Shown here in pieces: positions 5,889 through 46,535 of a stretch of 64,000 nt of DNA. The stretch is from Apostichopus japonicus. Its lineage: Eukaryota; Echinodermata; Holothuroidea; Aspidochirotida; Stichopodidae. The position numbers and the translations under genes were made by a program. The stretch is from positions 7,165,984 through 7,229,983 of the forward strand of contig NC_092564.1 of NCBI RefSeq assembly GCF_037975245.1, read 5' to 3'. Position 1 is the stretch's first letter; every line of letters begins with the position of its first letter. Under the pieces are notes generated by a model that was not told the origin of the DNA, did not search any database, and saw only the letters and a list, made by a program, of their open reading frames with translations.

Positions 5889-8800
5889 ATGGCAGAGCAA
5901 CCGAGCCGTCAATTGAGGAGTATTTTTCACGATCCAGATTACTACGCCAAATCATTCCGAGCTTACTCCAACCTTTCCTCCAGGCTGCATGTGTTAAAAT
6001 CATGGATCGAAAACATCTTTCCAATGAAAGTCGTGGAAACATTGTCGGCGAATACGGCTAGTGGATCATCTTCAGCAACGTTAAGAATGTTGGGCGTCGG
6101 CAGTGGAACAGGTAAGCAGAATGTGCCGGAAAGGGTGGGGAAGATAATTCAATTGGTTCATCATAGACTAACTGATAAATTATTTTGACATAAAATTTAA
6201 TTCAAACGTTGCGACACATCGCACCATTTTGAGTCTAAGCACCTATAACCATGTAACCCCCCCCCCCTCATCCACACACACCCCAGTACATAGATCAGTA
6301 AAGGTCGGATCATTTGATCTCTACTAACGACCACCCTGGGTCCTCCGCAGTGTCTTGCTCCACAAATCTGAAGCTCTTTCCCTTAATTGTAATCCCTCCT
6401 GATCGATAACCACTGTAATGTATGACCTCACCAATACTGGATCCATGACTGTTCACCAAAAAACTCTAAAAGGAAAATTGCTTGTTCTCTGTTTTATTTC
6501 GTTGCTCATCTTTCTATCTCTCCCTTTCTCTCTTTCTCAAAGTCCTTTTATAAGTTGTGTTCTGTCTTACCCTAATTTCTCTCTGAAGAACAGTTTACAA
6601 CTCACAACTGTCTGTAGAAACACCTTATTCTTTAACTCCAAGGGCGTAGGAACCGGGGGGGGGGGGGGGCTGGGGGCGCCAGCCCCCCCAGTGAAAAATG
6701 TGGAGGGGCGGAAGTATCATTCCGCCCCCCCCCCCCCCGCTTCGCAAGTCAGAAAACCCCTTTTTCATTTCCAAATGAGAAAAAAATCTCATTTGGAGCA
6801 CCAAATTGCATCTAAGGCCAGGTGAAAATACAAAATTAAGTTTACAAAATGGAGTGGGTGTTGAAGTGTGCTATATTGCACCAAATTGCATCTGAGGACA
6901 CCTGGAAATGCAAAAAATTCCAAAGGGGAGGGGGACACCCCCTCCCCCTTAGACCCCTCCCCCAGGCCGGCCATCAGTCTTCAGCCCCCCCACTCAAAAG
7001 TACCTTCCTACGCCACTGTTTAACTCAATACAATACTTGATAATTTTTCATAACAAAACAGAATGGTTGGGCAAACAATAGGATGGCATTTTGAAAGCAT
7101 TTGCCTATTACATAACTTAGCAGGACGGTGCAAAATTGCTAGAGTGCTTTACTCTCTAGAACAATGACCCATTAGCAAAAAGACCATCAATGTTACAAAC
7201 TTATATGAAAACCATGCAAATTTTTGTTCCAAATTGTCATAAACTTCATATAAGTTTGAGCTAAATTTTGTTGATTTCTGTTGCAGTTGCCATGTAACGT
7301 ATCTAGCATTTTTCTTGTGTGTCACTATGTAGTCTCGTGCAGTTATTGCAAAAAAATTCATTCTCCTTTTATTTTCTTCTTCTCTCTTGTTGCATTATAT
7401 TTCTAGGTGAAGCAGATTGTGATATGATATCGCAACTTCTACCGATATTTCCGAAAATTTCTAACACCGTTTTAGAACCCGCACCAGAGCATATCGAAAC
7501 TTATAAACGACTTGTTGCAAGTCGTAGTTTTGCTGGTTTAGAATGGGATTGGCGGCAGCAGACACTTGATGAATACAATAACGACAGTGCACAGACTAAC
7601 AGGGAAAAGTTCCATTTTATTAGCACTATCCATTCACTGTACTACGCTGATGATGCTGAAAAGGCTGTAATGAATATGTATGACATGTTACAAGATGGTG
7701 GCGTTATGATGATCATAGTGTTAGCTGGTGAGTACGAAAGCTCATTAGTGCCATTCGATTATTTTTTAATTCGTAGCAACGAAAACACTAATTCGTTCCA
7801 ACAAATTAATAATTTAGAAAACGTAGCAATGAAGTGACTATTCGTAGCACAGAATAAATACCGGTCTTTCGTGGCAACTAATTATTAATAATTTTTCGAT
7901 TGGCTTAAATTGGCTTTCGTAAGTTAGGAGAGTATTGCATGTCGCTATTTTATTCCCACCCCCCCCCCCTCACCCGGCAATATCATCCGCGGATTCTTTC
8001 TTCCCTTTATTTCCTCATAGTATATCCTGTTTGCCGTCGGGCTAATGAACCATCTGAAATTCAAGTTTACCTACGACACAGAGAATTTATTCATCGGTTC
8101 GGGAGTATAGATCTAAAGTTTTTTTTTCTAATTTGGAGACTGACTTCCAACGATCCAAGGCATTAGAGAGATTACCTGAGAGGAATCGCCCATTACTTTA
8201 TTATTTCATTGATTGGTCCCCCCCCCCTCCTCCCCGTGGGATAAATCGAAGTAGGTTACTGTAGGATGTTTTGCTTTACCAAATAAAAAGACAGAGAGAC
8301 ACCTTCGTAGACCTTACTTCTTTTTTACATATACCAATTTAATTTGGTATATGTCGATCGACATCGGTATATGTCAACCTATATTATACAAATAATGAAT
8401 GGTTTCCATTCGTGCAATAGTGCAAATATTGCATGAGTCGAAAGATGGAATGTTCCATTCAACGAGGCGCAGCCGAGTTGAATGGAACAAATCACATCTT
8501 TCAACTCATGAAATATTTGCACTATTGCACGAATGGAACCCATTCATTATTTGTTTTATACAACATATTATATTAAGATGGGTAAAATGCATTCATGCAA
8601 CAGATTGTTTTGAACAGACAGGTTTCTCTGCTCTCTTACCGTTGAAAAAAAGTGCTACCAAAAATTATAACCCATGGTTCTATTTCATAGAGTGGAATAG
8701 AGCGGATTTTGCATGCAATCAACGAGCAATTGACCAATCAAATGACCAGAATACAATTAGGTGTTGTATAAAGAAAACTACCGATCATCGACCTCATTAA

Positions 8801-14400: not shown

Positions 14401-17400
14401 ATGGCTGCCCCCATGAATCACAACAACAAAGTTACTTTAGCTAAAAACAACCTTGAAAAGTTCAAAGTAAGCTGCGGAATTGATCCGGAGGATGCCAATA
14501 GCCCACATGTTATCCGCGGTGTAACGGAAACTTGGCCATGCATTTCATGGTCCGTTTCCAAGCTTGGTGAATTAGTTGGAAACAAACTTGTGAAGTTTCG
14601 AATTGGTCTTCGGCGAATTCGAAACGGTACTTCTATTCATTTCTATTGCACCTTGTTCCGTAGTATTGTATTGTCATCGATATTCGATATAAATTATCTG
14701 CTTCAAGAATGTAAAACGTCCTACAATAATTGAAATGGCATGTTACAGTACAGCCTACAATATCATAAGTTAGAATACTGAAGCTAGGCTATGTAGTATG
14801 TGTAATACTAGTAATAAAGCTTTCAAAACCAAACTTACTACAATTTACAAACTGCTATAAATCCACTGAAGAGACTGTGTAAGAGAGTGTGTAAAGTCAG
14901 GCCAACTAACTTTTACACAGTAATAAAGATTTGTCTAAAGCCTATATGCCTATCGTTTGCGAAATTTGTAGACTAGGTTACGATCTGATATAAGTTATAA
15001 TGTACAGTAGCATATATGCTAAACTGTCATTGTCAACAGAATGAGTATGCATGTGAATTAATATCATCAATATATTGTGTTTCACATCGTCACAATGTAG
15101 TTGTACCAATCTAATGCTAATAACTTTCACCTGAATTTAAAGGGTCATTATTTGGAGTCACTGCACAATCCAAGCCAGTTTGGTAGCATCAAGAGTACTT
15201 CGCTAAGTTGGCTTATATACTTTTTACTCTTTACCTTAAGCTTAATATACATTTTAGTTGGCTACAGCAGCTTTCATTTGTTTGTGAATGTGATATATCT
15301 GTTCCTTATTTACATAGGTAAAGTTCTGTGGGAGAGCCTGTGTTCCTATGAAGAAGCAAAATTGAGCGATTTTGAAGAATGGTGTTCGCTGTCACAGGGG
15401 ACACTATCTCAGCAAAATCCACTCCGGAAATATGACAGGGAAAAGTTTTGGTGCTATGCTGACTACAAGTATATGAAGGATCTCTTCTGTGATAAGCAGC
15501 AGATATTTGAGGTTTGCCCCTATTATAACTTTGAATATGATCAAATTTTTGCAAAAGCCTAATTAATGACTTAATAAGTGTATCTCCAAAATGGAATGAT
15601 GTTATTGTTCTCTGAGGGGGAGGGGGGTTGTATGGGTGAGGGAGAATCATCACAAGCATATGGACTAAAACATTTGCCCTGTAATGGTTTCCACTTTAAT
15701 TATTTCTTCTTGTTCATGCAATAGTGTATTTATCCTCATTTTTATCAAGTATCAGTAACTTTAAAGTTGATTATAAGAGCTGTTCCTTATGTGCATAGGT
15801 GACTTGTAGAAAGAAACATAGGAAACATACCATTCAATGCAGTAGAATAAATGTTCATCAGTAAATTTTTCTCAAATTGTTTAATATCTACATGACAATA
15901 TGAAGCTTACTCCATGGACATTCAAACACCACAAGACGTGACATAACTGACATTAGGCACAGGTGACAAATTGCTGTCATGCTCTTCAAATTTTCTGAGA
16001 TGCCCTGATCCATTATTTCATTCTGAATAACTTTGTTTACCTAGAATTTGACAATGCTGACAATATTGAAACAGCTACATTAATTTTAACTCTTTCTCTC
16101 TATCTCCCCCCCCCCACCTCCTCCCCAACTTCCTCTCTTACAGGCCATTCCATGGGATTCTCTTGGTCTCAATGGTTACAATGGTGAACAAAGCACTATA
16201 TGGATAGGTTCCAGTAGAGCTCACACAGTTTGCCATCAAGATGCGTATGGTTTCAATCTTGTTGCTCAGATTCAGGGCAGGTATGTTCAATCCCCCCCCC
16301 CCCCCAATTCCTGTTCCTTCCTTTTAGATTTGAAAGATTGAAGGTAAACAGTGCTTTGTACACAGGTGGGCCGTGTACTCAGATTTCAACAGATCTGCAA
16401 GAATATTGTTAAACTCAATTAATGCAGCTCACAAAGCTTTTGATAATATGAGAACAATGCTTTTTATCTGACCATAAATCAACTAAAATTCACTGAATGA
16501 CTGGAAGGTAAAAACTTTGGGGAGTTTGTTCGTGTATGGCCTACTTGTAGTAAGATCAATCATAGCATATGGACAATGGATTACCGATTGGATACAATAT
16601 TTCACAGTGGCTTGCAGGATCAAGCTCTTGCCCACCCTTGATGTAGAAGGTTTGGGTCAATGATCACTCCCGTAGATTAAGAGTTATAGTTCTGTTAAAA
16701 TAGTCTGAAGATTTGATAATTGAGGTTGAGGTTCCTTTTCAGACCAGAAAATACCAGTCTCAGTTACATTCATGCTAATCAACAAATTCAGGTCAATTAG
16801 AGTGCTTTTTGGAGATTAAGTCAACTGTAGATCTGGAGAGAAAAAAAACTGTTTCTGAACCCAATAACTCACAAAGGTCAACTAGTTGACTCATAATATA
16901 AAACAATAACTATGTTAATCTTTCTACTGAGAAAGTGTTAAATTTGGTTTAAGGCACAATTGAACAGCATTGTATCACACGGCTTGTTTTTTTTCCAGTA
17001 ATTTGGTTAGTTGTATGAACATTATTATTAAATACTACTATTATTATTGTTCATATTTATATATTTTTTACCATAGGAAAAAATGGTATCTTTTTCCACC
17101 AGAGCAGACGGACTGTTTGTACCCCACACGTCTTCCATACGAAGAGTCAAGCATTTTCAGTGAGGTGAACATAACAGAGCCGGATTTAACCATTCATCCT
17201 AGATTTCAAGATTCCACGCCACATGTGATTGTCCTAGAACCCGGAGATGTCTTGTACGTGCCTAGACATTGGTGGCATTATGTGGAATGTCTAGATACCA
17301 GTATCAGCGTAAACTGCTGGGTAGAACTGGTAAGTATGAATTTGAATTTATTGTCCACAATTGGAAATTCGGCTTACACAGGTCGTTAATGAAAAACAAA

Positions 17401-28336: not shown

Positions 28337-30444
28337 TACGGAGAGCCAAACGTTCCATAAATGTCGAAAAAGAAAGTGAAGTGTCCAAGTTAATATATAT
28401 ATGTCCAAATCGATATCAACATGTTACAATTCGATATCAACATGTTACAATTCGATATCAACATGTTACAATTCCATATGAACATGTCGAAACAAAATAC
28501 AATATGTCATTGCGTCTATCGACATGTCAAATTCAACATCAGCATGTCGAAAACTTGTAACAGCATGACACGTACTACACTTGTCATGTCAACATTCCTT
28601 GCTAGATACAATATTGAAGTCGTTCTATAATTTTGGAACATCGGCGCGCGCCAACGTTTCGTTAATGCCCAAAACTGTATCAGTATGTCGAGATTTATAT
28701 GAGAATGTCCAAAACTTGTGTCAGCATGTTGAGAGAAGGAAATAAAATATTCAAGCCAAAGGGATCACGTTGATGCCTTAGTGCAATTTTTAGGCCCTTT
28801 GTCTATTTTCACATGATTAATTCCTGTGTGGGCAATTGGGCCTTTGAGGTTGCTGCATGGGCCCCGTTACAGTTAAAAATGAATTCGTTGGTATTTTTGA
28901 ATACCGCAATGTCCAATAGAGCCAACACCTCTAAAAGAATTATCCTGCTTTTTGTTAACATAATCAAATCATGTGTGGGCCATGGGTCCTTTATGGCTGT
29001 TGTGTGTGGCCCGGTACAGATAAATGTCGTCGATGGTATTTTTTGGTTTCTCCAATGTATAAAGGGTTCAATGCAACTACAGGAATTATCCTTGTGTTTT
29101 TGCATATGAATAAATCACTTGGGCCATGGGCCCTTGAGGTTGTCTGGGCCATGGTAGAGGATAAATTTGCAGTAAATCGACCTGTGACGTCATTATGATG
29201 GCTCGCATCTTGCAGTGATGTGAGCCTAGTTTATTGCATTGCACTGCACTTGGCCTGCGTTTACTTTCAACCCAGTCTGCATCGATGCGATACTCAACTG
29301 GACCAGGAACCCAGAAGATTTGAAAAGAGACAGAGGGTTTGATGGGAAGGTTATGTCCGTTTATGACCAGGATTCAAGGTTATGTACTGCTGCCGTGCCA
29401 CACGATGTGCGTGTATGTAGTCTAAAGGTTCCTTCAATTACAATAGGGGGCTCAAATTTTGATTTAATCATGTGGAAGAGGCAAGGCAATAGCTTTGGAT
29501 AAAACTCAAAGTAAGATACCCAGACAGTAGCCAGAAAGGGCCCGTAGCCCACACATGATTTAATCATGTGAAAAGAGAGCAGGATGATTTCTTTTTATTG
29601 GCGCTGGACCCTATGGTTATCGGGTATTAAAAAAAAGAAAAACCTATGACTACAAATTCATCCTCTACCATGGCCCAGACAACCTCAAGGGCCCATGGCC
29701 CACACGTGATTTAATCATGTGCAAAGACACAAAGATAATTCCTGTAGTTGCATTGGACCCTTTATACATTGGAGAAACCAAAAAATACCATCGAAGACTT
29801 TTATCTGTACCGGGCCCCACACAACAGCCATAAAGTGCCCATGGCCCACACATGATTTGATTATGTTAACAAAAAGCAGGATAATTCTTTTAGAGGTGTT
29901 GGCTCTATTGGACATTGCGGTATTCAAAAATACCAACGAATTCATTTTTAACTGTAACGGGGCCCATGCAGCAACCTCAAAGGCCCAATTGCCCACACAG
30001 GAATTAATCATGTGAAAATAGACAAAGGGCCTAAAAATTGCACTAAGACATCAACGTGATCCCTTTGGCTTGAATATTTTATTTCCTTCTCTCAACATGC
30101 TGACACAAGTTTTGGACATTCTCATATAAATCTCGACATACTGATACAGTTTGGGCATTAACGAAACGTTGGCGCGCGCCGATGTTCCAAAATTATAGCA
30201 CGACGTCAATGTTTTATCTAGCAAGCAATGTTGACATGACCAATGTAGTAGTGGCATGCTGTTACACGTTTTCGACATGCTGATGTTGAATTTGACATGT
30301 CGATAGACGCAATGACATATTGTATTTTGTTTCGACATGTTCATATGGAATTGTAACATGTTGATATCGGATTGTAACACGTTGATATCGTTTTGGACAC
30401 TTCACTTTCTTTTTCGACATTTATGGAACGTTTGGCTCTCCGTA
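28337..30444. mobile_element. 2.1-kb foldback element with arms of about 0.8 kb
   Basis: The left arm (28337 to about 29173) and right arm (about 29656-30444) are near-identical inverted repeats around a centre of about 480 bp. The ends are TACGGAGAGCC / GGCTCTCCGTA, and CTCTAC flanks both sides (28331-28336, 30445-30450). A related sequence at 31087-31130 shows the unoccupied site (ACTCTACCCGTCG). Outer arm parts hold ACATGTC/CGATATCAACATGTTAC repeats; inner parts hold units of about 150 bp around GTGTGGGCCATGGG. Open frames of 98 codons appear in both arms on both strands and are palindrome artefacts. I do not recognise the superfamily; Polinton (also 6-bp duplications) does not fit these termini. 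Confidence 0.85.
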
Positions 30445-33020: not shown

Positions 33021-34626
33021 CCTATTTATATAGCGCATTATACCGGCGGTCTCAATGCGCTCAATGCAGTAACTTATAATAATCTGAAAATCTTGAATTG
33101 CAATAATTTTGTGAATACAGGTTTCACGATAAATATAACTGTCTTTAAATAAGTTTGAAATGTCACAGGAACTGTCGTAAGAACAAAAACTTTCAAATTT
33201 TATTTTATTTATTAAGACGACTCTTGACTTATTCTTGCCCTTTTCATAATCTCAGCATAAAACTTTAGGAAAGTTTTACATACAGTAATTTTGGTTTGCA
33301 AATGTTTGTGAGCAAGACATTTCGCTTGTAAGTACTACTCATAAAATGTCTTCTACAGTGAATCCCTTACATGATAACTCAAAGCCATTGATAAATCATG
33401 AACAGACCACAATATTGTGGCCTTCGTGATTGTTGACAAAATATACGTAAATCAAGTGCTTGATTCCAGCTTTCTAGGATAATTTCAGAGAAAAACAATT
33501 CATGCATTTCGTTGATGTTATTACCACTCCAAGTCCTACTCTGTAAATACGAATTGGCTTCTCGGTCTCATGTACAAGGGTTGGTAGGGGGGGGGGGGCA
33601 TTGAAAATATCACCGAAAACGCTCTTACCTCAGAAAACATCAGTAAACAAGTAAGGAGGAATACACACGCTTGAAGCGTGCTCAAACTTTCTACTATGTA
33701 TACCCTTTTGTCGTCAAAACTATAATCTTGATATATATTTAGTGCAAAACATTCGTAGATACGGGAGGAAGGGCCCCCTCCCTATATCAGCGCGTTGTCA
33801 TACATTTGCGACGCATAATCGAACTTTCAACCATGCTTTAGCCGACCTGCCTTACTTCAAGGAGTAGACGTCCGAGACTCAAGACAACTTTTTCGTTTGG
33901 TTTGAGCTTCCCTTTACCCTCTTTCCTTCGAAACAGAATCATATTCGAATTTTGATAAAGAAATCAATTCTTCATGAATCTTAGACAATTGTCGGTACAA
34001 TTGAGCCAAGGTAGGTTCTTGTTTTCCCTGCCGCCTCTCTTATTCGTATTCACCTCCAGAGATGCCAACCAGTACGATTTTATCGTATTTGGTACTTTAA
34101 AACAAGTGAAATAATACGATATTACCTCTTGAAAATACGATTTTTCATCTTTCAAAAAAAGGAAGTTTTGTTTCTTTTCTTAAAGGAAGCGGAATCACAT
34201 AGAAACATGTACAAGTAACCCCCCCCCCCCCAAACCCCGAAAAACACGTTGAACAACGAGCCTACATGGGCGGGAAATATGCAGAATCGGCAGCTTTACA
34301 ATTTTCTCATTAAATGTTAATGAAAAAGCAAACATTTAACTTGCCCGTTCTTACCAGTAAAACATTTTACTGGCCCGGGGCCAGTGGTAGTGTCGAGTTT
34401 TCGTGAAAATCTGATTTTTCTCTCCAAAATCTGATTTTTTTTTTTAGGATATTCAGTCTGTTTTTTTTGTGTCAAGAGGTTGGCATCTCTGCACCTGATT
34501 CACATATGTATCATACAATAATATTGCATCATAATAGCATGTTACATCCACAATAATATTGTTGCATATAATATTACGTGTACAATATCATATCTATATA
34601 CTCTAACATGTGAATATAGTGTCGTG

Positions 34627-36941
34627 TCATCTCTTCTCATCAGTGAGGTCATCTAAAGGTCTTGAAGTCTCTTTGTGCAATTCTAGCAGTTGTCCGAGCT
34701 GCTCTTCTCTGAAATCGTTCAATTTGGTTTCATCCAAATTAGATCCGATCTCCTCTATAGAGACATCCGACATCTTGGTTTGCATGTCAATCATATCTGC
34801 ATATTGCTGTCGATGAAATGGAAAAACAGAAGAAAGCAAAATTGATAATTAACAAATAACAACATATGGAATATTATGAGGGGTATACCGGTACTCAATG
34901 TTGACGTATATGGTTGGTGCAGAATGTAGTTATAAGTATTATAAACGTGGTCATTTGATTTTTAATTAAACACATGGATCTGTTTCAGCACATAAAAGAA
35001 AACAAAAGATTCAGGATGCGTTTTTTATTTCTTTCCAAAAGCCAACATGGGAATCTATAAGCGATGGAGATGAAGTGCGTGCGCCCGCGTATGTGTGTAT
35101 GTATCTATATATGTATGTAACGCCCAAATTTCATTAAACACGGTAACTGACAAAATAAACCTCCGATGAACCTCAAACAGAGTGTTAACATCAAGCTGTA
35201 TCGGGGGTAGATGAACCCTATTGAAATTGGTGGGGGTCGTGGGTCATTTGAGGTCAAAGTCTGCAAAAAATGTTGTAAATTATACATAGTGTTCAAAATG
35301 TGCAGCTTCGTCGATAAACTTCCTTTATAGGTATGTAGAAAACCCCTTGGTTGTTGTTGTTCCTCCCTGACGTCATCAAGATGGAGTTTTCGTAATGAAT
35401 GGCGGCTTACTGTGCATTGTGGTTAGGCTCTTAATGTGTATTGTGGTTAGGCCTTAAAAGCCAATTTGCAAAGTTAGCGTATTCAGTCCAACAGAAAGCG
35501 GTTAACTTAAAAATCGAATAATAGATAGTTTTGAGGTTACTGAACAATATAAATTGTCTTTGATCCCTGCCTTCGTTATTCCTTTCATGAAATGTATCAT
35601 ACGCATTCCTACATATATAATGAGCATCATTAGGCCTATACTGTACTGAAACATTTTCAAGAATCAGAAATTCTTAATTTTTAAAGCAAGATATTGGGAT
35701 AAATTGTATTATGTGCATATACTGTATATAAATACACATACAATAGACATACAATTTACCCCATTAACATGCATGAGCTTCAACAACGTAAACTCTTCCA
35801 AAACAAGTCCAGACAACCAAGAAGCCGAATATTGCTGAATATTGACCAACTGTCGATCGTTTCAGCGCAAGTAACCGTGATAAAATCTACATCCATTAAG
35901 TATCCACCAAAACAGGCCTATTATTACTACATCCATTAAGTATCCACCAAAACAGGCCTATTATTAATATACTACGTTGCCTTCACAAAATATTATTAAT
36001 TTCAACAGATCTGAAAGCAGATAACCAAATATATTGCTTTAAAATATACCTTGTCATCATGACCAAGCAAATTTTATTCAACGAAAGACAAAAAAAAAAG
36101 AAGGAAAAAAAACCCCTGCTGAAACCATATTGTACTGTACACATTGATAACAATATACGTGTACGCAGACAATTGCTGTCATATACTAACCGCACAGATT
36201 ACAACGCCTTCTTAATTCTATAACGCCAGAACTGCAATTGTTCGAAATTACTGACCGACTGTATTTTGGACGTCACGGCCAATCGTATATACTTTAAACA
36301 AAATATATATACTAGTGACGTATAGCGTCACGTTACAATACCATCACGTTAAACTTTGCTTCAATTCTTCTTTGCATAGCAAGATAGCATTGACCGATAT
36401 GCTGAATACAATATCGTCTATAGTTTATGTTTGCCAGGTTTAATCTATATATTTGACTTCAGTTCTGTGTTGTCTTATACTTACCAGAAGCTACAGCACA
36501 CCAGACGCTGAGAGATTTTACAACGATTTTGATTTTGCTCAAGAAAAAGACATGACGAAGATAATTATCATCGAGTATTGGTAAGTAATGAATTGCGTAC
36601 TTTTCCCCCCTTAATTATCCCTCACTTATGACGGCTATATTGAATCGGTGACATTTTTAAAGTAAAATATAAAGGATATTACCCGCATACTTAAATTTTT
36701 ACGGGAAGAATGCCATTGACTACAATACGATTTAAAGCAGCACAAATGCTTGACAGCGGTGGCAAGGGAGTATCTGTGTAGTTGGTATATGAATACAAAC
36801 ATATAATTATATTTTTTTCTGCCTGAAGCATTTCATAGTTATGAACTTTAATGATTAATTAAAGTGATCTGAGCAAGAACGATCTATAATAATGCTGGCA
36901 TGAATACAAGGTTTTGTATTTATTTACTTTACTTAACAAGT

Positions 36942-36980
<39 letters not shown>

Positions 36981-36991
36981 ATATATATATA

Positions 36992-37046
<55 letters not shown>

Positions 37047-40000
37047 TATATAGTGTGTAACTCATGTAAGAACGAAGAGAAATTTTCTACTGCAAACAAA
37101 ATATCATTTGACTGACTGGCACGTTTTGTTGTGTGCTCAGCATCCCCAATCAGAAAAATGAGAGGGAGATGCATGGAGTAGAAACATAACCCTATACAAA
37201 CCGACTTTTAAGAGTAGGAGGAACCTAATCATCCACACCTCCCACCCCTCCCCCCTCCCTCCATTCCCCAACACCACTCACATATCCACCGGTTTCTATG
37301 TCTGTAATATATATTAACATCCGTGCATAATTCTATGTTAAATACATATATTTATACCTTCTCAGTGGTGGATGAGGGTACGCCCCTCGCTTCCGGAAGC
37401 TAGCAGACAAAATCAAGGATGCAGTTCCAGAAGCAGAGGTCTCCGGAAAGGTTGGGCGATCCAGTAAGTTTTAACATTCCGAAGTTTCAGAAAGCTTTCT
37501 TTGTTCAGTTTGGTTTTATTTTTCTACATGTCTGATATAACAGTCACATAAAACTGTATAGGCTATTAGCTGGACTTGTCAAGTTTTATGCCAAATATTA
37601 ATTAATAATTTTTACATGTGGGTATACTTCTAGAGTCAGAGGGAGGCATGCAACAGCCCCCCACACACCCCACCCACCTTCAAAAGTTCACAGGATTTTC
37701 ACTCCGGATTTGGAGGAACCTATACATGACCACCTCCACCTGTATAGTTTTCTAGGAATTCGGTGACCACAAATCATATTTTTCTTTGAGATACATAAAA
37801 CCTCAAGAAAATGTAAAACTTGAATATCAACACTGACCTATACGCCTTTTGACAGATGTAACTATCTTCGCAATATTTGCACATAAGAGTCTGGGCTGCA
37901 GGCGTTATTTGTACATCCAGTGTTTTACATGAGTTCCATGATATGAACACATCACCTTTTTAAGCGATTTTGATAGAACAGAACATTGTCACAAACTGAG
38001 AGGGTGAATTGTGTCTCCTAAATGCATAGGGATTACTGAGAATCTATCACAGTGGGGTGAACACGTAGCTTTAAGGGGTTCGTCAGAAAAATAATTTTTA
38101 AGCATCTACTACTGACTGATATCTCAGAATTATCCAATTAGCATATTGATCTATAGTAACTTCCTTTATTCATTTTCAGGGTCTTTTGAGATCACCTTCA
38201 ATGACGCATTGCTGTTCTCAAAGCTGGACGCTGGTAACTTTCCTGAAACTGAGAAGGTAAAAACCAAGTCGAATTGCAAACATCTTTAGTTAATTAATTC
38301 GGTTGCATTCCAATTGTGTACGTTACGTCAGGAACAACTGCATTAGCCTTTGTTTTTTTATTCACTGTTTTTTTTTTCACCGTTAAATTTGAAAGCTCCA
38401 TTAAATGGAATATTCCGGAGTGGCAGAGAAACGTAACGATATGAAAAATACCACCTCATTATCATATGTATGACTCTATATACGGTTATTAGATTGATAT
38501 TATCCATGTTTACCAGATAAATCATTTCTTATAGTACATTTAAGGTGATCTGTAATATCATTATGGTTAGACGTTCTTCAAGAGCTCTTTTCTTTCCTAT
38601 TTTCACACTGCTGTTGATTTATCTTCAAAACGTGATACATTTGGAACCTTTGCTCAGTTGTCACATGTTCTCGCTTTTCACGACGATATGCAAAGTGTTC
38701 AATAGAACATGATTTTCTTCAGTGGATAAACTATTTGTTTTCATTATCAAGAAAACAAAGACTGCTTTGCCATGACGACATCAGTAACTCTATTATTGCC
38801 ATACGCATTCATAAAATAATGACGTTGGATCCTGTGAATTTATTTTAATGTCGATTCCCTACTTTTCAACTTCTTCTGCCTTTCAATTAGAGGACAAACA
38901 TGACGGATAGCCAACACATTAAAAACATTTCGAAGCAAGTGTATTATATATTTAAACATAGTGTGTTCAAGAATGATGGGGCTGGTCGGATTTGTTGCAT
39001 GATCCAAACAAACCAATGTAGTCAGTGTTATGATTCTGCGCAGAGCAGTAACGATGTATGTTCTTTATTTCTTCTGACACATCCCGATTCTCGTTGTGGT
39101 CACGGTAACTAAGGGTGGATATTGGTAATGTTGATCCACGATAGTTCAGGTGTTGTATTATAACTTATTCACACTTGTTTGTTATGAATTTATTTTACAC
39201 ATTAGATATGAAGTTTGCCCATGCTTCCCATTTTGAGATATCGTGTTTACAAGGTTTTCACAGACCCCTGATGACCCTAAATGACCTGAGGTTATTGTGT
39301 TAGTTGTTTATATTTAAACCAAAAATAAAGATTGTGTCATCTTTTTGCTATGTGTGACATGTGACTTTACGTTCAAAGTTCAAAATTACATACCTTAATA
39401 ACATGACAAGCTACACAAGTGTACGTAGTACATATTTTATGCCTCAGAAAATATCTGAAGTTATTACTATCCCAGCTCGGTACCGTTTGTTTAATTTTTT
39501 TTAAATTATTTTCTTCTTTCTTTTTTGATATAAATCTGTTTCCTCAGATCGTGGACTACATCAGGCATCACGATGGAAAAGGTGACGTAGTCCAACTGAA
39601 AGAGACCCAGAAGTCCTCCTGCACAGTTTTGTAAACGTGACGAGGAAGGCTTACAAACCAAGAAACTGAGCTATGCTTTTCAAATTTTAATGTGTTACTA
39701 TCAACGAATCTTCACAGTTATATTATGAGTTACACAGATGAATCCAACCTTTAAAGTAAGACAAATTTACGATTGTGAAAAAAAAACTCCTAAAAACGTC
39801 CAAAACTTTTAACCATGCTTAGGTGTTTTATGAGCGGGATGAACTGACTGTACTGTACTTGTCTCCCCATGATCTTAGGACATTTGCCCTGACCAGTAAC
39901 CTTTTTTAGCATTGTACACTCTTGGAAACCGGTCATCTTCCCCACCCCCCATCCCCACCCCCATCCCCACCCCACCCCCGGTCAAAGACGCCTGTCTTAT

Positions 40001-42631
40001 TTTTTCTATCAGCTAAAGTGTTGCAAAGTGTTTTCTTACGTGAACTCTTGTTATCTCTGTAAATGTGTTAAGAGGTCCGCTTTTTAAGACTTCTCCGGCA
40101 GTCTCTCTGAGACAAAAGAACCAAAAGCTACCTTTGAGGTTATCTTCAGGACAGTCAAGTATATACCGTAATGTAGATGCAGTCATACTGTCCAATTTGC
40201 CTTGTAGGACAAACCCGCACTCGCCGTCCGATTTGGACATCTCTAACGGAAAGACCAGGTGGTTCCAAAAATGAAACCCACCAATTTTACCACAGATAAA
40301 AAAACATCAGGCTGTAAAAAGTTGGACATTACAGACAGCTGATAACGACTGTAGAGTTAAATCATTAATTCATCACAAACTGTAAAAGTTCCTGTATTGA
40401 ATATCATAGAGTGAGGTGGGTTAACTGTTAGAATATATGTATATTTAACAAAACAAAACCTTAAATTTTGTAAGCATAGCTCAGTATTTTTTGAAGATGC
40501 AGCAAAACAAGCCAACTTTCCTAGAAGCTTTGAAATGAATACCTCTCTGATGAAGACTATGGTTAGAAAGGGACCTACATATCCTGGTGCCATGGTCTGA
40601 TGGATGCGAGTTTGGACATCATATTTAAGCTTCATGTGAAAGCGTTTTGTTGTATTCAAACATTTCTGCGATATTTAATTGTTTGTTGAAGAAAAAGTTA
40701 ATATGTGACTGACCAGTGAATGAATGATGTAATTTTGTCATTCAGAGATTCAACATGGAGCAAATAAATCATCAAATAATCATTTTAACAAAACCTTAGA
40801 GAGAGTCTGAAAAGAAGAAAATGAAAGACATAAGTATGTATATTGGCTCAATTGGTTTGATACAAATCCTGTAAATGTGATATTTTTTTATTTTTTATTA
40901 TTAGAATTGAATTTTGCATTTACAGGGTAGACTATAAGTTTTGAGTATCAAATAATTGTCTAAATTTATTGACATTCTTTAGATTGGCTCTTGTTGAATA
41001 TTTGAGCAAATAAAAAGGTGATACAGTCAATGAGTATTCTATTGTCTGGTGTCTTGATTTGCTTCTAACAATGACTTTGAAATTCCACAGACTTATAATA
41101 ACAGAATAGAATTGTATAACCTAGCAGAATATAAGCAGAAAAAAAATAATGTAGATTCAGGTTACAACAGCTGACAAGCCACTGCGACATGATTGGACAG
41201 TTTGACTTAGTCGGCTGTTTAGTTTACAGCATAACCTTTGTCGTCTTAAATCGTACATTTTTTTTTAGAGGAAAAGTGTGGCGCTATACAAGAAGTAATA
41301 TTACATGTTTAATACACTTGTAGAGTAGCACCAAACTGCAAAGTGTACTATACCTGTTAGGCTGTTGAGTTGCCCTCAAATACATACAACATGCCGTACT
41401 TTAATTCTCCTGGCTTGAGCTCCATATATTATCCTCTGTTAAAGCAGCTTTTAATGTCTGGGCATTTAAATATGTGGAAATTTTGATCAAAACTACCAAG
41501 TAATGCTCAAATTGCAATACATCAAACTAAGACTCCTTACTATTCTTACTAAATGTAAGGCTGCTTGACCAAATAACTAATGATTCTAGAAGGTCTTCAA
41601 AAGTGTCAAAGGTGTTCCTTTTCCTCAAAATCCTTTGAGAAAGTCTCTGGAAAGTCATCCCTCCACTTGATTCCTCCAGCTATCTTTGCATGCCGGTAAA
41701 TCATGACCTTTGCATGCAGGTAAATCATGACCTTTTCATGCAGGTAAATCATAAATCATGCTGGTAAATCATGACCTTCTCCCATCAAAGACTGTGCACT
41801 GACAGCTTTACAAAGTGTGTCAGGTTCAGGCTAACAACAAATTTCATGAGGATTCGAAGCTTACAGTATAAACCAATTCTTGTACAGTATAATATTTTTA
41901 ACCAATATTCCTCCATGACATTTAATTATAATTTCAAAATTGTACACACTCGGTTTTGAAAAATTGACGGTCACCTGGATAAAAAGAATATACTGGGAAA
42001 GCTATGGGGGCCTATTTTGAAAGTGCAGAGAAACTGATGGCTAGAAGCAGTTTAAAACTTACAGAATAGATTTCTTTACCAAAGGTTGTCAGAAGTGGCA
42101 AAGCATCTGGTGAATTCAATCGATGAAGCAAAAAACCATGGGTAAGTAACAGATGTATGTATGTACTATGTATGTATGTATGTATGTATTTTAGATCCTC
42201 CTACAAGCAGAAACTTAGGAAGAAGCCATTATTGGCTTATCAAAAGCCGCAAGCTGACTGAAGTCAGTGTCTTAGATTCATATTTAACGTCCATGATTAT
42301 GAATTGTCAGTTGTCAACAACTCTGTAACTGGACGACATACATTAATCTTGGAGTGACTTGAACTCGGGACCTTATGATTGAAACACACCGGTGTGCACT
42401 GAGCTAACATTCCTAAAACAGAAAAAGAAAATGAAGAAGAAAATGAAAACTTACTGTCCATTCTTTCACAAAGTTAGCAGCTTCTGCTTGACCCACTTTC
42501 TTATGAAGTTTGAACTCTGCTCTTGCATATTCATCTCCGAGTGCTTTCATTTCCAGAGGCAACTTTCTGTGGAGTGTTAGAATTCTTCGATACAATACTC
42601 TCACAGACCTTGCCTGTACTGACGAGGCCAT
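34627..42631 (-). CDS. SDHAF3: Succinate dehydrogenase assembly factor 3 (LYR-motif protein)
   Basis: Two coding exons on the minus strand, 42631-42455 and 34806-34627, join at phase 0 to give 118 aa (human 125). The LYR motif is VLYRRILTLHR (L13-Y14-R15), followed by LPLEMKALGDEYARAEFKLHKKVG, NFVKEW|TQYADM across the junction, and LNDFREEQLGQLLELHKET, all matching SDHAF3/Acn9. The family acts in the mitochondrial matrix, helping iron-sulfur cluster insertion into the SDHB subunit of complex II. The intron of about 7.6 kb contains a complete selenoprotein gene on the plus strand. An upstream in-frame ATG at 43703-43701, spliced from 43698 to 42652, would add nine residues (MDQFPYCTV). I chose 42631 because it gives a leader of family length. 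Confidence 0.93.
35887..35966. repeat. 40-bp exact tandem duplication
   Basis: The unit starting CTACATCCATTAAG and ending GGCCTATTATTA occurs twice in a row without change, inside the SDHAF3 intron and upstream of the nested gene. Confidence 0.85.
36552..39634 (+). CDS. Selenoprotein W / MIEN1-like selenoprotein (in-frame TGA = Sec, CaaX end)
   Basis: Four exons: 36552-36580, 37366-37463, 38180-38256 and 39548-39634, all GT-AG with consistent phases, encode 96 aa if TGA at 37373-37375 is read as selenocysteine. The protein starts MTKIIIIEYCGGUGYAPRF: C10 and U13 form the CxxU redox motif at the same positions as in SelW. KLADKIKDAVPEAEVSG, SFEITFNDALLFSKL and FPETEKIVDYI follow the Rdx thioredoxin-like fold. 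The C-terminus SSCTVL is a CaaX box predicting geranylgeranylation, as in human MIEN1 (CxxC, ending CVIL). A SECIS-like stem-loop lies in the 3' UTR. The gene is nested on the opposite strand of the SDHAF3 intron. A pseudogene with a chance nonsense codon is unlikely given the intact frame and SECIS. Known relatives act in redox control; MIEN1 promotes migration at the plasma membrane. Confidence 0.9.
36941..37041. repeat. (AT)n microsatellite in selenoprotein intron 1
   Basis: About 100 bp of alternating AT with one CTGT interruption. It creates Ile/Tyr-only open frames on both strands that are not genes. Confidence 0.95.
37373..37375 (+). other. Selenocysteine-encoding TGA codon
   Basis: In the frame fixed by exon 1 (TAT TG|) and exon 2 (|T GGT GGA TGA GGG TAC), the TGA takes the place of the second redox residue in CxxC/CxxU of the SelW/MIEN1 family. 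Both flanks continue the family sequence without another stop. Confidence 0.88.
40541..40612 (+). promoter_or_regulatory. Candidate SECIS element in selenoprotein 3' UTR
   Basis: ATGA (40550-40553) and TGAT (40598-40601) form the SECIS non-Watson-Crick core. Helix II pairs GACTATGG (40555-40562) with CCATGGTC (40590-40597), eight pairs including one G-U. An unpaired AAA follows at 40567-40569, 13 nt after ATGA, then a small AGGG/TCCT mini-stem, as in type II SECIS. Below the core there is only a short CTC/GAG pairing, so helix I is weak. It lies about 0.9 kb after the stop codon, and I found no AATAAA between the stop and this element. Confidence 0.8.
40763..40768 (+). terminator. Polyadenylation signal candidate for the selenoprotein mRNA
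   Basis: AATAAA about 160 nt downstream of the SECIS candidate; a second AATAAA is at 41009-41014. Use of either keeps the SECIS within the mRNA. Confidence 0.6.
41682..41779. repeat. Short minisatellite, unit of about 25 bp
   Basis: The unit TGCAGGTAAATCATGACCTT, with small indels, occurs about four times inside the SDHAF3 intron. Confidence 0.8.
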
Positions 42632-42652
42632 GACTGTGCAATAAGGAAACTG

Positions 42653-43703
42653 CTGAAAGAAACATACAATTCAAATCACAGCTCAGTTATCTTATGAAAT
42701 GCATTCTCTCGACTTTTGTCCTGAAGCATCACTACAAAAATTGTATTAATCAAAATGTAGCTTTCGTGATCAACACTCAGAAGAACTAGTGTTGATAGCA
42801 TTAACCTCTTATCTGTCATTTTTATCCATTAGTTGTGCATGATAGCAACATCACCCAAGTGGCTAAAGTTTGTTTGGGAAGGCTCTTTTGTTTTGGAATT
42901 TTATTTCCATTTTCCACTTTGATGATCAACCCTTTATGCTAAAAAACTTGATGTCTGCATATCAAAATTTGATAACAGCTGGTTACTTTTTAACTGAATT
43001 TTACTGATATAAGAAAGATAAATGCTGATTTTTTAAACTTTCATGAAACAGTCACAAAATATAAGGTTATGGTGAGGAAATATTTATTTTTTGTCTCTAG
43101 TGTAGTTGTAAATGGGTTTAGTGTAAACGACGGACAATGCTGACATATTCATACAACCCTAATATATGGCATTCAACCCATCTTGATTGACGCAGGCTGT
43201 GTTTATTTGTCTGCAACGTCTGTGGCAGGCAAATGAATTATGACCGTATCAGAGGCACAAGGCAAAAGGCCCTCATTGTAGATCTCCTTCATGGTATGCC
43301 CAGGGTGTCTAAGTAGAGAACATAGTATCTTATACTTAATGGTCTGAATTCCGGTCATGACCCAAAGTTTACCCGCCCACATGATTATAACATGTCACGA
43401 TGTTAGCATTCTGTAGTCTCTTTCAACATTTCACCAAGTAAGAAAATCTCCAGATATAACTTCTCGATAACATATGCATTGTCAACCATAGGGAAAGAAA
43501 ATATGACTGCGAATGAAATAAGACCCCTTCACTCCCCCCTTCCATTGACATTGTTTAACTGCTAACTTTGAATGCTAGTGAATATGCAAGACAGTTTGGA
43601 GGTAACACTGTTTCATGACTTCAGTGTAGTTAAGTATATGCTAGAAGTAGAACATGAAAAAAGTTTAAGTACACAGACGAACAGACTCACTACTTACGTC
43701 CAT
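42653..43703 (-). other. Probable SDHAF3 5' exon junction and first intron
   Basis: On the minus strand a strong donor GAC|GTAAGT (exon end 43698) and a strong acceptor TTTCTTTCAG|CAGTTT (exon start 42652) flank an intron of about 1.05 kb upstream of the LYR-encoding exon. The upstream exon contains ATG GAC (43703-43698) in frame with the SDHAF3 ATG and in good context (A at -3, G at +4). The exon is predicted from splice signals only. Confidence 0.5.
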
Positions 43704-45059: not shown

Positions 45060-46535
45060 CATATATAATGTAAATTTCAGAGACAGATTTAAGACAAATA
45101 TCACTACCATAGCACGGCTAGCGGCCCTTACGATCTTCTCTAATTTACCGGAAGAAAAATAAGTCAGCACGCTTTGTATCACTGACTGGTAAAACAGTAC
45201 AAGAATAGTGTTGTCGACTTTAAAATATTTCAGTTTACGTACAAAATACTATCTTTGGCAGGCTTTGAGTTGCATCAACCTGGTCTTTGAAGTTCAGTTT
45301 ACAGTCAAAGATGATGCCTAAATATTAATAGTGGTGCACCTGTTCAACAACCTCAGCATTAACATTGATTTGAGCATGATCACATGGCTGTTTCCTGAAG
45401 TCAAATACTATCTCCTTTAATTTTTTACCAGTTCAATTCTAGGGAGTTTTGGTTGCAGTAAGTAACAAAATCACCATAATCATTCTCATACGGAGTAGCA
45501 ACAGTGTTATGCAGGTAACCGGTTATCACGGTATCATCAGCATATTTAATGATAGAACAGACATCATGTTTACTTTTGCAATAGTTAGTGTACAGGCAGT
45601 AAAGGGCAGGAGACAGACAGCATCCCTGGGGAGCACCTGTATTAACAGACCGAATATCAGAGCAAATACCATTTAATTTAAAGGCATCGAAGACTCTCCC
45701 CAAACCGCGCGCCATCATCTGAAAAAGTTAACTATCCGTTGCTTGCAAGTGAAGTTTTTTTCGTTTCGCTACAAAATGCAGACAGTAATGAAACATGATA
45801 CATGATACATAACCAAACACTCTGGGCTCCCGGTCTACTTGTTATCTTTTATCAAGACCTGAGATGTCCATCGCTGCTATGTACACTGTGTTATGGGTAT
45901 TGACCGTAGCTGCATGCATTGACTGTGCACTAGTGTCTAATTACCGACGGTAGCAACTTACTGTGTGTATTTTCTGGGATCGATGGTGGTGTCAAACACT
46001 TCTGTTACACCTCATTCGAAACTAGGTCGGATTACCGGCATGAGACGTTTCTTTGTGCGCGCGTCTTCAATGCCTTTAAGAAACAGGTCTGTCATCTTAA
46101 ATTATTTAAGATCCAAAACAATAACCTACAATTAACACCCTTAGCTATAACAGTTTATTAGTTAATAAGTGTGGTTCAATGGAACTGAAGGCACTCGAAA
46201 AGTCGACAAATATCGCCCTGACAAAAGAATTTGGTATTTCTAAGTGTTCAAGAATCTTATATGCAAACACAATAGGACTGCATCGTCAACATGTCTATTA
46301 GCTCTATATGTAAATTGCATGAATCTATGGTAACGCCTCTCTCATTCCAAAAGGCCCTAAGTATAAGTTTTTCAAGACATTTCATTATGGTAGAAGTGAG
46401 TGCCACCGTAATCATTTAAGGTAGTAACTGTACGTGACCCTAATAACAGGGATCTCACCAGTATCAATTGTGTCTTGAAATATTTCAGTAAAGATGGGTG
46501 CTAACTGGGCAGAGCATAACTTAATTACTTTATTA
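45060..46535 (-). pseudogene. Decayed non-LTR retrotransposon reverse transcriptase
   Basis: Read on the minus strand in shifting frames: APIFTEIFQDTIDTGEIPV, PVALTSTIMKCLEKLIL, HVDDAVLLCLHKILEHLEIP, IFVDFSSAFSSIEPHLL, then (after foreign sequence of about 350 bp) VNTGAPQGCCLSPALY, the catalytic box KYADDTVITGY, FVTYCNQNSLELNW, IVFDFRKQP, and HHY/YLGIIFDCKLNF. These are the ordered RT motifs of CR1/L2/Rex1-like LINEs. Frameshifts, internal stops and the insertion make it inactive. No endonuclease domain or 3' tail was recognised. Confidence 0.85.

Follow-up and report, generated by a model that had tools for sequence, protein, structure and literature searches.

The window analysed here, a stretch of 64 kb from the genome of the holothuroid Apostichopus japonicus whose own numbering is used below, carries on its forward strand a four-exon gene of the Rdx family in which an in-frame TGA occupies the second redox position of a CxxC-type motif. 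Coding exon 1 (36552..36580, 29 nt) runs from the ATG, which has a G at -3, into the Cys10 codon, of which it holds the first two bases, and is followed by a GT donor; exon 2 (37366..37463, 98 nt), flanked by an AG acceptor and a GT donor, holds the CGG-U site, where U denotes selenocysteine (Sec) and the TGA lies at 37373..37375; exon 3 (38180..38256) is 77 nt long; and exon 4 (39548..39634, 87 nt) ends with the codons of a CaaX-type terminus, CTVL, and the stop codon TAA (39620..39634). All three introns are of the GT-AG type, with donors GTAAGTAA, GTAAGTTT and GTAAAAAC and acceptors CTTCTCAG, ATTTTCAG and TTCCTCAG. Joined in phase, the exons encode a product of 96 residues, MTKIIIIEYCGG(TGA)GYAPRFRKLADKIKDAVPEAEVSGKVGRSRSFEITFNDALLFSKLDAGNFPETEKIVDYIRHHDGKGDVVQLKETQKSSCTVL, followed by the stop. 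The TGA at codon 13 of 96 is the only internal stop in this frame, the other two frames containing 5 and 6. A tblastn search of the 64-kb window to E 10 found no second copy within it, all rows beside the four exons having E values of at least 3.7. Within intron 1, at 36942-37052, the dinucleotide TA is repeated about 55 times.

Profile and structure searches were performed with the product read with U at codon 13. It matched Pfam Rdx (PF10262) with E 2.4e-17 and 63.3 bits against a cut-off of 22.6, and NCBIfam CXXU_selWTH (TIGR02174) with E 1.6e-16 and 60.3 bits against a cut-off of 34.2. Among solved chains the best relative was human MIEN1 (C17orf37, PDB 2ljk; E 5.8e-14, 28 identities over 90 aligned positions), followed by mouse selenoprotein W (SelW; PDB 2npb; E 6.4e-4, 18 of 64), whose alignment reaches only query residue 68. 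Because the product matches Pfam Rdx, NCBIfam CXXU_selWTH and PDB 2ljk, the frame is not a chance one, and the gene is confirmed as real and intact at the positions given above. A preliminary description of this DNA, made from its letters, had proposed four exons joined in phase to a 96-residue Rdx-family protein, a TGA at the second redox position (C10-G-G-U13) and a Cys at that position in human MIEN1. Coordinates, GT-AG introns, frame and Pfam match all agree with the proposed exons, and codon 13 aligns with the second Cys of the human CxxC motif. By these similarity scores the protein stands nearer to MIEN1 than to SelW1, a comparison limited to solved chains.

Queried with the joined protein, the whole genome (671,581,487 bases in 35 contigs, with the window at G000:C4:7165984-7229983) returned 6 rows. 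Three were exons of the window gene, and two were exons of a second gene, encoded by the contig's minus strand, with E 1.0e-8 for the one, which contains a TGA, and 6.8e-4 for the other; the last row was weak (E 6.72). A genome search with the Rdx profile also matched exon 3 of the window gene. The second gene, about 21.6 Mb away, has exons of 32, 98, 77 and 84 nt at G000:C4:28860133-28860102, 28856834-28856737, 28856266-28856190 and 28852338-28852255, so that exons 2 and 3 equal in length those of the window gene. It shares the GT-AG introns and intron phases, likewise encodes 96 residues with a TGA at the aligned codon, and has CVIL at its C-terminus, exactly as in human MIEN1. Beyond the TGA the copies agree at 54 of 82 residues, with 0.27 nonsynonymous (dN) and 1.56 synonymous (dS) substitutions per site; therefore, the sequence beyond the stop codon has been kept by selection, and the coding sequence after the TGA is under purifying selection.

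These results bear on whether the TGA could be a true stop yielding a 12-residue peptide, as a standard gene model ending at the TGA would have it, or whether exon 2 could be skipped. The 83 codons after the TGA retain Rdx sequence, the 82 that could be compared with the second copy show the purifying selection just described, and joining exons 1, 3 and 4 alone would break the frame (193 nt, a remainder of 1) and bring in several stops, leaving this alternative extremely improbable. They bear equally on a decaying MIEN1 pseudogene in which a Cys codon had turned into TGA with the frame otherwise undamaged so far. Such a change would take a single substitution, an argument from the letters of one codon to which no result adds a sign of decay; against it, neither the splice sites nor the frame, the family residues or the CTVL end show damage, and the second copy has the TGA at the aligned codon together with a low dN relative to dS beyond it.

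Downstream of the gene, on the coding strand, we identified a candidate selenocysteine insertion sequence (SECIS) at 40541..40612, whose core (40550-40601) begins 916 nt downstream of the stop codon; the preliminary description had reported none. The scan rule called for an NTGA quartet, a helix, an unpaired AA or CC 8-13 nt on and an NGAN quartet, with a mini-stem admitted. The element has the quartet ATGA (from 40550) opposite TGAT (to 40601), a 9-bp helix, an AAA bulge and a 4-bp mini-stem, and we assign it to Form 2 because the bulged AAA comes with the mini-stem. At -15.3 kcal/mol it was the best scan candidate over both strands of the 64 kb; when 39635-41100 was shuffled 2000 times with dinucleotides preserved, -15.2 was reached by 2 shuffles and -14 by 3. 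The Rfam model SECIS_1 aligned end to end (model positions 1-64) at 40541-40612 with 26.0 bits, and of 4227 families it was the best by E value both when 161 bases were given (E 0.0023) and when 1466 were given (E 0.021). An AATAAA polyadenylation signal (40763..40768, forward strand) lies 162 nt beyond the core, and another AATAAA stands at 41009. In PMC2746813, all 14 of the sea urchin SECIS elements taken were likewise of Form 2. Two other hairpins were considered and rejected: a GTGA hairpin at 40716 (-8.0 under the first scan rule), for which the 14 Rfam matches in 40650-40800 did not include SECIS_1 and whose fold was no better than that of shuffles (z 0.02), and the second-best SECIS candidate of the window, at 33388 (-13.1), whose single Rfam match was not SECIS_1.

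The element was also recovered by a route independent of the SECIS scan rule, a blastn comparison of 36000-42000 with 19,701 bases around the second copy. The strongest match between the loci was not an exon but a block in the 3′ untranslated region (40466..40686, forward strand; 72.5% identity over 222 columns, E 2.9e-31) that holds the SECIS, with exons 2, 3 and 4 following at E 1.7e-17, 3.4e-10 and 4.9e-5. The only other row below 0.001 (39142-39199, opposite strand, E 3.6e-4) was taken for a dispersed repeat, and the remaining rows had E values of at least 0.13. The block lies 3′ of both genes, the SECIS core of the second copy being 341 nt beyond its stop codon, and three parts of the element do not differ between the copies: the ATGA, the bulged AAA and the second quartet's GA. 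Of the 13 SECIS pairs compared, 9 are invariant, 2 differ at one base, 1 differs at both bases, and the remaining 1 no longer pairs in one of the copies. Conservation between the two loci is thus highest at the SECIS block, and with the intact coding features this leaves a pseudogene hardly credible. An assembly or sequencing error in the Cys codon of an ordinary MIEN1 gene would need only one wrong base, but the same error would have to have arisen in both copies and would not supply each with a SECIS, and its probability is accordingly minute. The preliminary description had named conservation of the TGA across species as support for a selenoprotein; in a within-genome form that expectation was borne out, with TGA and SECIS recurring in a diverged second copy.

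Several observations weigh against a Sec-encoding gene with a SECIS. The 26 bits of SECIS_1 fall below the Rfam gathering score of 35; at gathering level Rfam gave 0 matches over the whole window, and at E up to 10 on 39500-43000 it gave 10 matches with SECIS_1 absent, presumably through its filters. The first scan rule, which had no mini-stem, missed 40550-40601, and the shuffles used the later, relaxed rule. Helix I is weak (-4.4), and the fold of 113 nt is modest (z -1.66, with 15 of 200 shuffles equally good). The element scores less well at the second copy (-10.7), coming behind candidates of -12.9 and -11.0 as the third of three at or below -8 on its strand, and SECIS_1 scores 17.7 bits there (E 0.43). 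Exon 1 of that copy was assigned from the single candidate of a pattern search, and blastn between the loci found no match of it to exon 1 of the window gene; the dS of 1.56 is near saturation. Finally, the pairing counts come from two sequences only, with 248 of 500 shuffles as high and 1 of 26 cells unpaired, and with two sequences covariation is no evidence in itself.

The genome also encodes components of the Sec pathway. SepSecS, by which Sec is synthesized on its tRNA, was represented by 3 exon matches on one contig (C7; best E 1.1e-108). Exons resembling selD, which encodes selenophosphate synthetase, gave 8 matches on contig C20 (best E 6.2e-10), none above the 125-bit cut-off, which is set for the whole protein and which single exons would not be expected to reach. 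The selD-like exons (G000:C20:25962397-25978359) form two neighbouring sets of four matches each, one of the eight having a TGA inside; the sets may represent a pair of adjacent selenophosphate synthetase genes.

Because a TGA and a SECIS occur in two diverged copies, selection extends past the TGA and SepSecS is present in the genome, we regard it as almost certain, on these sequence features, that the UGA at codon 13 would be decoded as Sec in a gene of the SelW2 type. We infer transcription, Sec insertion, redox activity and prenylation as follows. The mRNA would comprise the four exons and a 3′ untranslated region of about 1.1 kb or more containing the Form 2 SECIS; decoding of the UGA at codon 13 as Sec would fall to a SECIS-binding protein together with eEFSec and Sec-tRNA; and the product would be a small thioredoxin-like Rdx protein whose C10-G-G-U13 motif may cycle between selenol and selenenylsulfide. 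Its CTVL end would probably be geranylgeranylated, anchoring the protein at the inner face of a membrane as for human MIEN1. The gene clearly illustrates how automatic annotation would truncate or miss a selenoprotein, an example present twice in this genome.

The least ordinary part of the gene is the presence in one protein, in both copies, of Sec and a C-terminal prenylation box, CTVL in the window gene and CVIL in the second. According to PMC6738349 and PMC3527542, human MIEN1 ends in CVIL, a prenylation box modified by geranylgeranyltransferase I. We somewhat favour the idea that the two copies encode a lipid-anchored selenoprotein, with a Sec redox centre held at the membrane by a geranylgeranylated CaaX tail, and that this is the likely ancestral state of the MIEN1 migration factor. 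If so, the original MIEN1 activity would have been selenium-dependent and located at the membrane, and selenium would be connected with membrane-bound signalling through a protein that carries both Sec and a prenylation box. In the literature searched, which left most subscription papers outside, no paper paired 'SelW2' with 'CAAX' and none contained any of five phrases for a prenylated or lipidated selenoprotein, both being weak evidence of newness.

Elsewhere in the window lie features with no bearing on the Sec reading. Upstream, on the forward strand, are an open stretch resembling histamine N-methyltransferase (7307-7834; PDB 1jqd, E 1.2e-10) and a Cupin_8/JmjC exon (16964-17386; Cupin_8, E 6.1e-25; factor inhibiting HIF1, E 1.2e-15), which by its resemblance could belong to an HSPBAP1-like gene. 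A reverse transcriptase fragment on the minus strand (45428-45727; RVT_1, E 6.7e-8) is a mobile-element remnant. A large inverted repeat spans 28337-30444; its arms 28669-29121 and 29703-30155 are 453 nt long, 97% complementary and separated by 581 nt, and its outer arms include 28427-28571 with 30251-30395 (145 nt, 96%) and others.

Genes of this kind are already known from published accounts. PMC3316567 describes SelW2 from bony fishes, frog and elephant shark as a selenoprotein, with mammals retaining Rdx12 (MIEN1), which has Cys at the Sec position. It places the Sec-bearing SelW2 in the ancestral vertebrate set, with Rdx12 derived from it, and found no Cys-to-Sec change among the vertebrates surveyed; parts of the tree are called confused there. 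PMC2397514 counts Rdx12 among the mammalian Cys homologues of fish selenoproteins. SelW2 is named in Ciona (PMC2874816) and in planarian, schistosome and Trichoplax (PMC3828610), and a table in PMC3473315 gives each of six invertebrates between one and three SelW genes. In a brittle star, selenoprotein W was raised in regenerating explants (PMC8718600). Among the papers listed by our literature search we found none on the present gene, PMC12693785 having no passage on it, and a search that covered no animal sequence database gave no named record of it. The preliminary description had left open whether this lineage keeps or regained Sec. Because PMC3316567 takes SelW2 with Sec to be ancestral in vertebrates and found no Cys-to-Sec change among those it surveyed, retention is the likelier course and the suggestion of a regain the less likely one. 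This agrees with the view that Sec came first in the MIEN1 group. Since SelW2 selenoproteins have been published for several animals, the gene is also less of a surprise than the preliminary description implied.

Compared with the known proteins, the product is most like human MIEN1 (Rdx12, C17orf37), its best sequence match, with which it shares a CaaX end (CTVL here, CVIL in human). It differs from human MIEN1, which has Cys where the window gene has TGA and a longer N-terminus, the alignment starting only at residue 27 of the PDB chain but already at residue 5 of the product. Mouse SelW1 (PDB 2npb) shares the domain and the redox position and is a weaker match than MIEN1; its PDB chain shows Cys, whereas the natural protein has Sec there. 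SelW1 is not known to have a CaaX end. Vertebrate SelW2 (SelW2a, SelW2b and SelW2c), likened here by description, is an Rdx-family protein with a Sec-bearing CxxU motif and a relative of Rdx12/MIEN1 (PMC3316567 and PMC2397514), although PMC3316567 terms Rdx12 a remote homolog of SelW2. The SelW2 proteins of Ciona, planarian, schistosome and Trichoplax are likened to it by the name SelW2 only, and on that name rests their membership of the same group as vertebrate SelW2 (PMC2874816 and PMC3828610). We regard the gene as the SelW2 of an animal, a kind of gene already described, and as the Sec-bearing counterpart of MIEN1/Rdx12.

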